From: Liolophura sinensis
Taxonomy: Eukaryota; Mollusca; Polyplacophora; Chitonida; Chitonidae
Length of the DNA: 64,000 bases
Assembly (NCBI RefSeq): GCF_032854445.1
Contig: NC_088303.1
Location: 23,291,265-23,355,264, forward strand
Reading direction: 5' to 3'
The translations under genes were made by a program, and so were the position numbers. The notes under the pieces were generated by a model that did not search any database, had not been told where the DNA came from, and was given only the letters and a program-made list of their open reading frames with translations. This document shows, in pieces, positions 52,680 to 63,700 of this stretch (positions are counted from its first letter, which is position 1; each line of letters begins with the position of its first letter).

Positions 52680-52965
52680 TGTATTAAAAAAAAAAATTTT
52701 ATACCTTTTTTTTCACTGAGGATACGGTACATCATTGAATAAGTGGTCATTGTATGCTTAGATGTCTTCTTTCTTTCCTGAACCCGCTTTGCTTCTTGAA
52801 AGTTAATTTAAGACAGTAAGAGCTATCGCATGTTACATGTTTGTAACAGTATATGAAAAGTATAAAAAAAAACTTCTTTACTGGATAATATGCAATAAGA
52901 CATGCTGCATTTCATTGCTAAAAATTACTATTCACAGCTGAGATCGCTAGATTTCTTATTGAAAT
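52680..52965 (+). repeat. repeat shared with 58096-58230 and 60860-61130
   Basis: Contains aacttctttactggataata, tgcaataagacatgctgcat and attactattcacagctgag. The reverse complement of 60860-61130, in an intron of the A1CF-like gene, covers it and also the separate piece at 58096-58230. Confidence 0.8.
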
Positions 52966-53336: not shown

Positions 53337-56300
53337 GATTTATTTCATTTAGTTCATAATTGTGTAAAGCAAACTCATGTCACAATTCATTTAAACACAT
53401 TGTATTACTTTATTTCACTTAATTTACAATATCCCAAGAAAATTAATTATGATTTGTTGTTATTTAAATCGGGCACTCATTTACCATCCTTGAGACGATC
53501 GCAAATAGTATGTATAGAGTATGTCTAGGGTTTACTTGGGTTATAACGTCTACACCCTTCTATGTTACAGAGACCTGTTTCATCTACCACCACCACCAAC
53601 ACCACCGACGACAACAAACCCAGCACGAGTAAAGCTCAAGTGAGTTTAGCGGGGGCTGCCTCGCTGAAAGAAGAAGAAGAAAAGAAAAAACAAAGTCCAA
53701 CGAGCCAGTTCGAACCCGACCCGGTACAGCCTCACGAGGCTGTCTTGTCGAGCGGTGACAGTGACGTACGGGAGTTGTACCAGCGGCATTGGCGATCGAT
53801 CAGAACGCATTTCCATCGCCACAAACCAATTCAAGACTGCTATAATTACCGACTGAGTGATCTCGGTACTATCCCAGCCTATGTAGACGAGATTTACGAA
53901 GACCAGCCGACCACTTTCACTATCAATTACAGTTTTGGATATATCCTCCGCCACAAAGAGACGGGTCAGGTGCGGTATTATTACCCGAGCACCAACAACA
54001 CCCGAGTACTCGACGCACCGTACCGCGTGGCGAGTCGGGCTGACCTGCGAGGATTCCACACCCAGCATCTCCTCACCCAAGACCCGCTTACCTGGGCTCA
54101 AAAACAACGCCCCAATACGAAATGGACCGTCGACCTCATCACCAACGTGATGTTTTTCGTCCACAAACTGCCACATCAACCTAAGGTGGGGTAACGTTAC
54201 CCTCTTACCTGACGGGAAACAAGGGGTTACACACGTTGGTGGGTGGAGCTAATGGTCCTTACAGGGACTATTTGTGTTTGTTTCGGTGTCTGGCCGTCCA
54301 TCTAGGCCAGGCCGACCCCAAAAACTGCGAGGCCCAGGCTGGGGTGTATTACCGCAGGTATCTGGAGGAAATGGAGATGGAGCCGAGGTATTTCCGCGGA
54401 GTACCCCTCAGTGCGCTGGACACGGTTGGAAAGCCTGTTTCAAGTGAATATTCAAGTCTACCACCTCATCCCCATTGACAGGTCGTACTCAGCACAACTC
54501 ATTCACCGCAGTGCCGAGCGCTATTCTCCCCCTACCCTGCGGTTAAACCTGTACCAGCGACATTTCAGCTATATCAAAGACATGGGGCGTTATGCTCGAT
54601 CTTTCACCTGCCAGGTGTGCCATAAGAGTTTTCGGACACTGCGGGAGTTACGACGGCACGGTCAAACGTGCACCGACGCCATTCGACGAAAGTACCCGGG
54701 GGGTGTCTTCCGCAATCGGCCCACCATTTTCGAAACGTTGGCGGACATGGGGATCGAACTCCAGGACGGTGACGACGGCATCTTCCCATACCGAGCGTGT
54801 TACGACTTTGAGGCGTACTTGGCTCCGGTGAACCCGGTGGACGATGCGGCGACTGCCTCGACGGAATGGACGGCTCAACACATGCCCATGAGTGTCAGCG
54901 TCAACTCTAATGTACCGGATCGCGACCAGCCCGTGTGTTTCATCTCCACCGGCGATCCCCAGGCACTCGTCGAGGCCATGATGGCTTACCTCAACGACAT
55001 CAGCGAGATCAGTAGCACCTATCTCCACGAGCGTTATGCTTACATCCTGGACGCCTTAGACAAGCGGATCGATCCCGACGAGAAGAAACCGTCTTACATA
55101 CGCCGAGTGCGGGACAGATTCGTGACCTATATAGACCAGCTCCCCGTCCTCGGCTTTAACTCGGGTAACTATGACCTGAACTTAATCAAACAACAGCTTT
55201 ACCCCCACCTGGTCCAGAGCGGTGATTTGGAGTATGTATTTAAGCGGAACAATAATCACATGGCCCTCACCACACCGCAGCTGAAATTTCTGGACATTCG
55301 GAATTACCTGGCCCCGAATTACAGTTACGACAAGTGGGTGAAAGCTTACGACTGTCACGTGACCAAAGGGAAATTTTGTTACAGCTACATAGACTCCCTG
55401 GCCCGGCTGGAGGAAACGGTCCTGCCACCGCAGCATGCTTTCGACAATGATCTCACCCACCAGCCGTGTACGGACGCAGAGTACAAGACCTTACAGACGG
55501 TGTGGCGAGAGCACGGCATGCGGACCGTCAAAGACTTGCTGCGGTGGTATAATAACCTAGACGTCATTCCCTTCATGTAGGCTGCTGAGAAGATGTCGGT
55601 GTTCTACCGAACCATGCATGTGGATGTCTTCAAAGACTGCATCAGCATACCAGGGCTTACCCTCCACTACTTATTCCACGATTTACGCTCTGTGTTCACC
55701 CTCGTCGGTGAGAAAGACAAAGACATGCACGATTGCCTCAAGAAAAACATCGTGGGTGGGCCGAGCATCATTTTCCACCGCTACCACGAACGAGGCGTGA
55801 CCCGTATACGGGGAGGAAAGCTGTGTCAGCGCATCGTGGGATTCGATGCCAACGCGCTATACCTGTACTGCCTGGCCTCACCTATGCCGGCGATCACTGC
55901 GTCCGTTGGCGCCGTCGGGATGGGGGAGAGAAGTTCGTTCCCTCCGGCACCGCCACCCGTCTGGCTGAAAAATGGCTGGACTGGGAGTCACAGCAGCTGG
56001 GGGTATCGATCCATCACCGACTCAATCACACCGAGAAGCGGATCGGTGACCGACAACTCCCCGTAGACGGGTTCGCCTATATCGACGGACAGCCTACTGT
56101 GTTTCAATTCCACGGGTGTTATTTCCGCTATCACGGCTGTCACCTGAATCACCCTCGCCCAGGAAAGGTGTGTTACAACGAGCGGCGGGGATTAAGCCCC
56201 CAGGACTTACGGCGGGAGGTGGATGCGAACGACGCATACATTCGCTCCCAGGGCTATCCATTGGTAACGATATGGGAGTGCGAGTTCCACCGCCAACACG

Positions 56301-57487
56301 CGACAAACCCAGCCTTACGGGACTTCCTACAACGATACGGTTTACCCCCGTCACAGCGACAGCCCAAGACACAAGCTCAGCTCATGGAGGCTGTCATTCA
56401 AGGCCAGTTGTTTGGATTTGTGGAATGTGACATCCACGTGCCGGACCACCTGAAAGCGGACTTTGCTGAATGTCCACCCATCTTTAAAAACACCGAGGTG
56501 AGTCGGGCTGATATAGGCCCCACCATGGCAGAGTGGTATCTCGGTCGGGGATTGGTCGTCACGCACGTCTACCAAGCGATGGAATACACACCGGAGCGAG
56601 CGTTCGAATCCTTCGCAGACGCCGTCACCCAAGCTCGACGGGAGGGAGATGTCGACCCGAACAAAGCCCTGATCGGGGAGAGGATGAAGATGTTGAGGAA
56701 TTCAGGTTATGGAAAAACCGTCACCAATCAAGACCGACACGTGGATGTCAAAATCTGCGATCTGGCAAAAACACGAAAATTACTGGAGAGTGTTCGGTGT
56801 CGAACCGTCGACCCCATCGACGAGACCACCTTTGAAGTGACGAGTAGCAAGAAGACCATTCGCTACAGTCTCCCCTTGCAAATAGGGTGTATGGTCTACC
56901 AGTATGCCAAACTCCGCATGCTGGGATTTTATTACGATTTCATGGCTCGTTTTTTAGACAAGGCGGATTGGCAGTACTGTGAGATGGACACAGACTCTGC
57001 TTACATGGCTTGGTCTGACCCAGACTGGGAATCCCTCGTCAAACCCGAGCTGCGAGCCGTGTACGAGACCGAGCGGGATGCGTGGTTACCCCGTCGCGAC
57101 CATTACGACCACGATAAGCGCACACCGGGGCTTTTCAAAGTCGGTGATGCTATCGTCAGTTTGTGTTCCAAGACTTATTATTGTTACGGCGGGGAATCCA
57201 ACGCCAAAGACAAACTCTCCTACAAAGGTGTGAGCGCACGAGGTGTGGACAAGGCCGTGTACCTCTCTGTGTTGCGCGATCACCAAAGCGCGAGTGGTGT
57301 GAATCGGGGGATGCGGATGCGGGGCAATACGATGTACTCGTATACCCAACACAAAGACGCATTCACGTACTTTTACGGGAAGCGAAAAGTGCTCCCCGAC
57401 GGGGTGAGCACCACCTATTTAGATCTGTAGAACGGTGCTATGGATACTCTACACGCCCTGCTCCCGTGCTCTTGTGACACTTCCGAC

Positions 57488-57503
57488 GGCCCTTTTCAGG
57501 GCC
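57488..57503 (+). terminator. replication-dependent histone-type 3' stem-loop
   Basis: GGCCCTTTTCAGGGCC: a 6-bp stem with a UUUC loop, followed by AACCA. The histone consensus is GGYYYTTYTNARRRCC with an ACCCA-type tail; this differs from the commonest histone form only by a compensated base pair. It lies 57 nt after the TAG at 57428-57430, a usual histone distance. Known role: bound by SLBP and cleaved after the ACCA, giving mRNA without poly(A) that is stable only in S phase. Function here is inferred. Confidence 0.85.
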
Positions 57504-57509
57504 AACCAA

Positions 57510-57526
57510 CTCTTCCCGAAAGAGTA
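57510..57526 (+). promoter_or_regulatory. histone downstream element-like GAAAGAG, with second hairpin
   Basis: GAAAGAG at 57518-57524 begins 14 nt after the stem-loop, where the purine-rich U7 snRNA-binding element lies in histone pre-mRNAs. The same bases can pair as ACTCTT/AAGAGT (a 6-bp hairpin). A further purine-rich tract, cagaaagaaaagaag, follows at about 57554. An AATAAA at 57891-57896 offers an alternative polyadenylation site. Confidence 0.6.
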
Positions 57527-57697
57527 CTTTCTCAATATAAGCACTAAAAAAACAGAAAGAAAAGAAGCCCCACACCAAACACAGTCTTCCCATCTTTTTT
57601 TTTTTTAATTGTACAATTTTTTTTCATGTGTTATATCATTCGCAGTGGTACATACGTTAAAAAGTTAAAAACACCTAGCGGGGGGCGGCGTAATAGC

Positions 57698-57849
57698 CTG
57701 ACACACTGACCCGACTTGCCGTGCCTGCTACATCGTCATACATTGTTGCCGAGCGGCGCCTTGCCGGTATACCGCAGACGGCCTGGTAACAATGTATGAC
57801 GCAACAATGTATGACGATGTAACAGGCGGTGAGTGGGTCAGTGTGTCAG
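57698..57849. repeat. imperfect ~50-bp inverted repeat, right side of element
   Basis: Left arm 57698-57749 (ctgacacactgaccc ... tacatcgtcatacattgttg) pairs with right arm 57801-57849 (caacaatgtatgacgatgta ... gggtcagtgtgtcag) with a few mismatches around the middle. The ~51-nt loop holds an extra copy of aacaatgtatgac. Confidence 0.9.
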
Positions 57850-57965
57850 TGTGCTATAGCTGGCCTGCATGCTGTTGTGGTAGTCCTCATAATAAAAAAA
57901 GAAAAAAGTCAAACCACCACGGTATGCGAGTCTCATAGTCTCTTTTTTAAATTTTATTCCATACT

Positions 57966-60729: not shown

Positions 60730-63700
60730 AACTCTGACAATTCTAGTTATGCAAATAGTTACTTTCCTGGCTAATATGTATTCAAAATATACTTGGGTAA
60801 CCGCATGCATGTATGTATGTGAGTATTTAACCATTCATTCTTCAAACGAGTTGCTAAGACACAGAATACCTGATGCATGTCACGAGTGCTTACATAACGG
60901 CAAACAGCTCAGCTATGAATAGTAATTTTCAGCAATTAAGTTTTTTGCAGCATGTCTTATTACATATTATCCAGTAAAGAAGTTTTTTTATACTTTTCAT
61001 ATACTGTTACAAACATGTAAAATGAGATAGCTCTTCCTTTCTTAAATCAAGAAGCAAAGCTGGTTCAGGAAAGAAAGAAGAAATCAAAGCATACAATGGC
61101 CACTTATTCAATGATGTATCATAAGTGAAAAAGGGTAGAGCTTGGGCGGTGAAGCATTTGTTTGTCTTTCCTTTTTTCTCTGGACACTAACTTTACCTTC
61201 AAGAGGCACACCTAACTGCATCAAAGTGTACTCTGCTGCAAAAACCTTTGCCCCCTCAACAGTAGAACACAGTTTATTTGGGGTAAATGGGTTACAATTT
61301 GGAAACTGAGTACCGAGAGCTGGTATGGTGATCTGAAAGACAAATGTACTTTACCATAGATTAACAATGTAAATGCCCAACATCAACTTCTACATGACAC
61401 TTATATATGTATAAATCACAACCACGACATCCTTTTTTCGATTTACTTCAGATCAATTATTTTTATAAGATAATTTACTTCTTATTCTTTCTGGTACACA
61501 TGGACATGATTAATTGTATAAATAAATAATAAAAAAAGTTACATTCCAGCAAAAGAACTTGATTCTTATCTCTTCAAACAAGTTTCTTATCAACATTTTG
61601 TTGAAACCTATGGTAGTACCTTGTACAAAAAGAGCTCTAAGAGCTGTTGGGCACCACTTCCATCCCTTCCCATGGGAGCATGAAGCTGGTATACAGGACT
61701 TCCCCATCCATTCTTCTGGCAAAGGTCATCCAGCACCTATAGTGAACATCGTTACATGCATGACACTCTTGATTTACTGAAGCCTCACTAGGGCAATCGG
61801 ACTATAAATTAAAGGTAATTAGTAAAACAAAAAATTCTTCCACAAAACAAAATCATAGTCAAACGTTAAACACAGAGCCTTGCATTATGACAACTTTCAA
61901 TGATAACAAAACAGCCAATTTTTTTTAGCTATTAACACACCTGATTAACGAAATTTAATTCAAAACTCATTACATGTATAGGAAATATTAGATAAGAATT
62001 AGTTTCTAAGTATGTTACCTGTTACTTCAAAGTTTAAACAAACACCCATCTTCAATGAAACTGAACTAACTCACCTTCTGGTTAATTGCACAATCGGTTC
62101 ATGTCTTTTAGTACGGCGTAGGCAGATTATAGATTTTAAGACTGCGTAATCCTTTAAGCATGCTCCAGAATAAGTTGCAATGCGCAACTTTTTAATGGGA
62201 TATGGGACAGGAAACCTTCTGCATTGACAACGATACACACCTCTGCTGGATGTTTCCTAAAGCCCCACCCCCTCATCATCCCTCGGCCTCGCACAGGGCT
62301 TCTGATGCCCATGGGACCTGGCTCTGCCAACGCCCTGCTAACAGTACAAAAAGCACAAATATTCAAGCTATTTCATGGTAAAAATTATGTGACTGAGCCT
62401 TCTTAAAGTTTCTTCTTCCTGCTTTTCCTCCTGAGATGTTCACATAAAATCAAATATATTGAGCTATTCAGGTTTGGTTGATGAAACTTAATGCTTCTTT
62501 GTATACTTACATGTAAGAAGCTCATAAAACGTTTTTTTTTAGGACATTGCATGGATAACACATAAATGTTACTTCTTTCACGTTAAATGACTCTATCAAC
62601 CACAATGGCAAAACCACTAAATATGGTAGTGTACCTTTCCTACATGTATGCTGTTGAATGGAAAGCTACAGAGTGACAATTAAAGAATATAGGTCACAGG
62701 TGGTATGAAGTTCACATTAATTCTTGGCAAAAAGCAAGCCCCTCCCATTCAATAAAATCGCCTGTTTTCAATAAAGCTATGCCTTGCACAGCCTTGCAAA
62801 TATTTCTTCTCCATGTGAAGCACCTTCCAACTGAAATCCGTCATTACCTCATTTTGGATTTCTGTTGCCAAAGTAGACTTACCCATGTCATTTTTCTAGT
62901 TCTCACTCTGTACTCTGTATCCATTAGCATATCAGCAGGAGAGCTACAATACTGTACTTTGTAAAACCCACTTACATATGCTTATTTACAGTTACAGTTA
63001 TTACAGACAAATCATAAGGTAAAATTTAATCTTAGGTTATCTAAGATTTCATCTTAGATGATCACAACTGAAATGATTTAAAAAAAAAAACAAATATCCT
63101 GTTCCTGGTCTGAAGCACACAAATGACAGAGCATCTGACACTTCTGAGAACCCTGATATTAAACAGACAAACTGGACACACACGGTGGAATATGACAACC
63201 TATGCTCTTAATTCTGCAAATATCGTTCTAAGCTAACCGATTTTTTATAAAAATTCCAAGAATACAACTCTATTCTGACTGCAAGATCATCTGCTGTGCT
63301 GGATTCTCATCTGTATTCTTATATTGGGTGAACAGAGTTGTGGATTTCAGGCCAAAATAGTTCTTACCTTGCGGGTGGTGGAGACATCGGGTTGTAATAC
63401 GATGGAGGCGAGTAACTAGGATCATTGCCATAGCCCTGAAAAATTTGTCACAGTATCAAGTACACTTGTCATACAACCAAAGCATGCATAACCCCCTGCC
63501 TTAACATACGAGGAACTCTTACCCTGACATAACAGAGCCCACTACCCTGACATATGAGGTACTCTTACCCTGACATATGAGAACCTCCTACCCAGATATA
63601 TGAGAACCCCCTACCTTAACATATGAGGAACTCTTACCCTGACGTAACAGAGCCCACTACCCTGACATACGAGGAACTCTTACCCTGACATAACAGAACC

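Follow-up and report, generated by a model that had tools for sequence, protein, structure and literature searches.

A 64,000-nucleotide stretch of the genome of the chiton Liolophura sinensis (hereafter the window) carries the broken gene of a mobile DNA polymerase and, closely behind it, a hairpin of the kind that ends replication-dependent histone mRNAs. Is this a real histone-type 3' end, to which gene does it belong, and what might an element gain from it? Animal histone pre-mRNAs are bound at the loop by SLBP and base-paired with U7 snRNP at a histone downstream element (HDE), and are cut after a CA lying between the two; the product is a poly(A)-minus mRNA found mainly in S phase, according to passages of two papers on histone mRNA (PMC9756948, PMC2781718).

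The stem-loop and its downstream module

The features of the window that bear on these questions are the following:

53547-57430, forward strand: broken relic of a Polinton DNA polymerase (PolB) gene, recognized from its frames, TAG, Pfam and homologues
57481-57618, forward strand: 3' module forming an inverted repeat with the RING-gene 3' end of other copies (138 columns, 93.5% identity to locus L069)
57488-57503, forward strand: histone-type stem-loop with a 6-bp stem and UUUC loop, GGCCCTTTTCAGGGCC (Rfam, fold, host-histone model)
57504-57508, forward strand: AACCA, expected cleavage region (after CA), predicted from its sequence by analogy with the account in part of PMC9756948
57518-57524, forward strand: GAAAGAG, predicted HDE and expected U7 pairing site, at the same position in 18 host histone ends
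57538-57544, forward strand: TAAGCAC, distal motif common to host histone 3' flanks (AGCA invariant in 18/18)
57891-57896, forward strand: AATAAA, a putative backup poly(A) signal; the surrounding sequence is similar to the region, just after the stop, that holds AATAAA in older copies

The initial annotation had described a histone hairpin with a 6-bp stem and UUUC loop followed by AACCA, and Rfam, the predicted fold and a host-histone model confirm it at 57488-57503. The spacings it gave are also correct: the stem-loop lies 57 nt from the PolB TAG at 57428-57430, GAAAGAG starts 14 nt after the loop, and AATAAA stands at 57891. Within the window, GGCCCTTTTCAGGGCC is the sole perfect-stem loop of this kind (mean 0 in 200 mononucleotide shuffles), and its exact 16-mer occurs 146 times in the 609-Mb assembly, against 0 occurrences of the pattern read backwards. 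The module folds at -16.1 kcal/mol (z = -3.0), a value equalled by 1 of 200 shuffles, and the predicted fold contains the hairpin as first drawn together with a second small hairpin around GAAAGAG.

Rfam RF00032 (Histone3) scored 57483-57529 at 28.2 bits (E = 2.8e-6 in 251 bases). As the gathering score is 34, the loop was missing from the whole-window scan at gathering scores; the other PolB copies likewise fall below this cut-off, and three copies of a second element gene, encoding a RING finger, exceed it. The shortfall of the window loop means little, since the host's own histone ends score 24–36.8 bits (8 matches at 7 loci). We also built a model from 18 histone 3' ends of this genome, covering H1, H2A, H2B, H3 and H4 and including zero element sequences. 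Because these ends were picked by exact loop letters, its loop part was not sampled independently; its downstream part is independent of that selection. The model matched the window at 57482-57550 with 67.8 bits (E = 6.5e-14 in 163,072 bases), the next window match reaching 11.1 bits. PolB copies scored 61.0–73.5 bits and RING copies 70.1–73.5 bits, and histone genes outside the model, which are near copies of its members, scored 62.7–78.1 bits. Judged by its sequence, the window hairpin is a real, histone-type 3' end. The sub-gathering Rfam score is the one point in favour of a chance hairpin, a reading of negligible probability that is ruled out by the E-value of the host-histone model and by the 146 occurrences in the genome, where the reversed pattern has none. 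Nor is the loop peculiar to a single locus: a DNA search with an 83-nt module piece returned at least 40 copies, from the 40 candidates scored out of 122.

Between the stem-loop and AATAAA, the window also contains an imperfect palindrome (57723-57827) with 27-nt arms, 96% complementary and 51 nt apart.

A Polinton with two stem-loop genes

The PolB relic consists of pieces at 53547-54194, 54306-55580 and 55581-56066, all in one frame with a gap between the first two and an in-frame TAG at 55578-55580, and of a piece in another frame at 55712-57430. This C-terminal piece scored 19.5 bits against Pfam DNA_pol_B_2, below the cut-off of 25.8, and an uninterrupted copy elsewhere in the genome reached 42 bits against the same cut-off. 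It has 820 protein homologues; among the best 120 of these, the best named ones are type B DNA polymerases of marine invertebrates, from Oculina, Patiria, Branchiostoma, Porites, Littorina, Nucella and Holothuria. At least 158 matches occur in the L. sinensis genome (76 of 734 candidates scored), with identities of 38–100% among those listed, and several sit in open frames longer than 1,300 aa. Two PolB homologues have a stretch weakly similar to Vsr and phage endonucleases beside the polymerase domain (P0001:101-121 and P0003:286-304).

Polintons were first described by PolB, an integrase, a Ulp1-type protease and a packaging ATPase, as summarized in part of PMC11071308. To the right of one PolB copy we found an A32/IVa2-type packaging ATPase, whose Pfam score is just under the cut-off and whose homologues number thousands, many with PF04665/PF02456. 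The same side carries a chromodomain protein (chromodomain 37.5 bits) with weak integrase-core similarity (E = 0.03–0.1 against solved structures). In another copy, a frame adjoining PolB resembles the viral cysteine protease S273R (E = 3.7e-7) and has no Pfam match. On these likenesses, shared with Polintons/Mavericks (Polintoviricetes), the window polymerase belongs to this group, the integrase similarity being weak. The element is unlike other Polintons in its histone-type 3' end, which the older Polinton-type PolB copies of this genome do not carry. RING, ATPase, chromodomain, capsid-like and protease frames were absent from the window by tblastn; it holds only the broken PolB relic and counts as evidence through its relatives alone.

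Several smaller observations concern the surroundings of PolB. Inverted copies, 88% identical, of a stretch upstream of PolB lie at 52728-52942 and 60908-61118 of the window and look like signs of rearrangement. At L071:9217-9879 (reverse strand), a frame convergent with PolB may be capsid-like; Pfam gave a weak unrelated match. Viral contigs yielded no PolB relatives by protein search, and a search of them with an alignment gave 404 pattern matches, none confirmed. Loop-pattern matches in two viral contigs that share one stretch were taken as chance; their long frames are unlike PolB by eye.

The initial annotation had set a check on other copies beforehand as a refuting test. When the host-histone model was applied to 32 PolB ends drawn from the genomic match list without regard to the loop, 9 matched and 23 did not. 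Close copies were defined as listed copies with at least 84% identity and a match reaching residue 566 or beyond (n = 23, a tally that adds the window and eight loop-fetched copies also present in the PolB match list), and older copies as listed copies with at most 81% identity and a match reaching residue 570–572 (n = 10). The stem-loop and downstream element are kept in 18 of the 23 close copies, 17 with the exact loop and one (L094) with one base lost, and in none of the 10 older ones. Eight older copies have AATAAA 53–70 nt past the match end (L073 and L074 are without it), and the module was also absent from eight further PolB ends (L095, L097-L103) with matches that do not reach the C-terminus. 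The module is missing from five close copies. In L093 and L081 the 3' UTR is otherwise similar, a state that would be as before insertion or after precise loss; L086 shows a larger gap, and L084 and L085 diverge soon after the stop. In the 15 copies measured, the loop lies 60–92 nt past the aligned PolB end, compared with 28–63 nt in histone core genes. The claim that a mobile DNA polymerase gene in a mollusc bears a histone-type stem-loop and downstream element is supported. Beyond that claim, the element is a Polinton, a second gene of it carries the module, and the older relatives mostly have AATAAA in its place.

That second gene emerged from three copies examined over 9.9 kb, each with a second loop on the opposite strand 6.3–6.7 kb away; in all three, the PolB and RING 3' modules form an internal inverted repeat of 133–151 alignment columns with 90–95% identity. 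Transcribed divergently from PolB, this gene codes for a RING-finger protein (43.3 bits against a cut-off of 27, and 29.8 bits in a different copy), and its loop lies 20–206 nt from the aligned protein end, farther than in most histone genes. Upstream of 71 exact loops in 68 loci we found 33 times a histone gene, 17 times a PolB piece (N-terminal in two cases, both in rearranged copies), 14 times a RING gene and 7 times none of these, in a sample that is not random: of 146 genomic loops, 100 were listed, and from the large C1 cluster the first eight were used, elsewhere mostly isolated places. Of the seven unassigned loops, the one at L032 belongs to a RING-type module, with a match to RING farther upstream. 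No loop was found in the one 9.8-kb stretch examined that carries the ATPase and chromodomain genes. Two single loci deserve mention in their own right: at L036:2995-3063, a RING gene of a more divergent lineage has the AACCA form otherwise found behind PolB (54/55 core bases match), and beyond the RING gene at L070:9264-9899 (reverse strand) there is a frame with C2H2-type zinc-finger repeats, recognized by eye in one copy.

Likeness to host histone genes and predicted processing

Among the host histone ends compared, the closest to the 55-nt core of the element are those of the H2B genes of L061/L067 (50/55 bases), with H4, H2A and H1 ends next at 48/55; the likeness stops after TAAGCACT. 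Such a sequence, of host histone type and nearest to H2B, might suggest that the loop is owned by a neighbouring or captured histone gene and not by the element. This is very improbable and is contradicted by the recurrence of the loop in an equivalent position after numerous copies of PolB and RING; moreover, no histone coding sequence was matched between PolB or RING and the loop in the loci so classed. The simplest account of the origin of the module would be a single capture of a histone 3' flank, later copied to the other element gene.

Another repeat family has full histone-type 3' ends and partly shared flanks (L009:259-326, L043:256-322 and L049:254-322 on the reverse strand, L044:2995-3061 on the forward strand; 58.3–72.0 bits with the host-histone model), and no histone, PolB or RING coding sequence was matched upstream of its loops. 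This family may represent a further mobile element bearing such a signal, which hints that the gain of a histone-type 3' end happened more than once.

Like the replication-dependent histone mRNA 3' end (RF00032), the element module combines the loop, ACCA, a purine-rich GAAAGAG at the same spacing and a distal TAAGCAC, and as in host histone genes it stands a short distance behind a stop codon. Unlike in the histone system, the genes in front of it encode a DNA polymerase and a RING finger, and its use of the pathway is predicted from sequence. The SLBP/U7 machinery should be present in the host, because the host histone genes carry the same module. An Rfam search for U7 found nothing in this genome and likewise nothing in 14 control genomes, and a U7 pattern search gave 6 matches against 6 in the control. 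Among these, L112 has CTCTTTC but is without a clear 3' hairpin or Rfam U7 match, and L111 scored 26.6 bits with Rfam U7, below 34.

We propose that host SLBP and U7 snRNP would cut the element pre-mRNAs after ACCA, giving mRNAs without poly(A) tails that would persist and be translated during S phase, and the replicase would accordingly be present as the host copies its DNA. Readthrough RNA that escaped the cut could still use the downstream AATAAA. The module itself would derive from a histone gene of the host and, once on one element gene, would have been copied to its partner. On this proposal, the module suggests that the element couples its own replication to host DNA copying.

The module could instead be a compact 3'-end signal, cut by the histone machinery, on a PolB gene that is not S-phase specific, for instance if its timing is set by the promoter or by recourse to AATAAA outside S phase. 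The AATAAA retained downstream in the window fits this, as does the absence of E2F-like sites from the shared promoter stretch in the three divergent intergenic stretches searched, and a human histone gene is able to use either pathway, as one section of PMC9756948 describes. We nevertheless regard termination without timing as quite unlikely, since the coordinate regulation of animal histone mRNAs comes from the stem-loop itself, according to statements in PMC2781718. In having a stem-loop and HDE together with a poly(A) signal, the element resembles dual-ending animal histone genes such as human H2AC18. In genes of that type the poly(A) signal overlaps the HDE, as given in part of PMC9756948, whereas the element, whose gene encodes no histone, has AATAAA 367 nt past the HDE.

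Conservation of the module and its significance

Among 18 PolB copies, mismatches amount to 1 of 288 cells in the loop, 1 of 270 in the HDE and 3 of 234 around TAAGCAC, compared with 59 of 1188 from stop to loop, 19 of 972 at the coding end and 56 of 414 after the module. For loop and HDE together, Fisher's test gives p = 2.8e-8 against the stop-to-loop stretch and p = 0.01 against the coding end; these values are rough because repeat-length differences inflate the flanks, HDE-like anchoring favours the module, 9 of the 18 copies came via the loop, and related copies are not independent. Some PolB coding windows equal the loop in conservation. The stem is nearly invariant in the element (the loop's 1 mismatch in 288 cells), and no compensatory changes were seen in it.

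Across 15 RING-type copies, 3 of 615 cells are mismatched from the loop through TAAGCAC, against 26 of 420, 77 of 525 and 77 of 450 in neighbouring stretches that are partly low-complexity. Eight of the 15 were comparable at the end of the RING domain, and 19 of their 28 pairs share less than 90% coding identity (mean 0.80); in these 19 pairs the modules are identical at all aligned bases, L032 having an inserted base. Twelve of the pairs, at 75–78% coding identity, each set L024 or L032 against one of the remaining copies and therefore represent in effect one deep split. This identity of the RING modules would be explicable by selection, or by conversion after the split. With the qualification that 16 of 63 module bases were required by the search, the module is, on these alignments, among the most conserved stretches of both the PolB and the RING 3' ends, and conversion or recent spread could explain part of this.

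A histone 3' flank caught by chance in a founder element and copied along as a useless passenger would account for some of the pattern. The element copies are young, a module-free lineage exists (L093 and L081), and the 5 of 23 close copies that lost or never had the module indicate that copies spread or survive without it. We consider such a passenger unlikely all the same: two genes bear the module, each in the correct orientation, none of the downstream components of the host signal has been lost from it, its flanks vary more than it does, and it is unchanged between RING lineages that differ by about a quarter.

The presence, orientation, placement, copy number and conservation of the module, its match to host histone ends and its absence from older relatives are established directly. 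From these, we infer that a young Polinton/Maverick subfamily in L. sinensis has probably gained a replication-dependent-histone 3' end behind its PolB and RING genes, with SLBP/U7 cutting and S-phase timing as the expected consequences. The wider reading, that a selfish virus-like element took over the histone mRNA pathway and that a complete histone 3' end on the replicase and RING genes makes them S-phase-restricted early genes, may well be correct, though we put it forward with more reserve.

The element and the RNA signal are each of known kinds, and their combination is new to us. A literature search of titles and abstract openings, with incomplete coverage and few subscription papers, found no Polinton, transposon or virus with a histone 3' end. 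Histone-type 3' ends have so far been regarded as private to histone genes, and a passage of a 2009 paper, which may since have been overtaken, states that SLBP had never been implicated in the direct regulation of any non-histone genes (PMC2781718). For further work, AATAAA-type and stem-loop-type PolB genes in one genome form a ready-made comparison. If the proposal is true, the SLBP/U7 pathway would gain a non-histone client, the element would have cell-cycle timing without a regulator of its own, and the question of how selfish DNA matches its replication to the cell cycle of the host would have a new answer.
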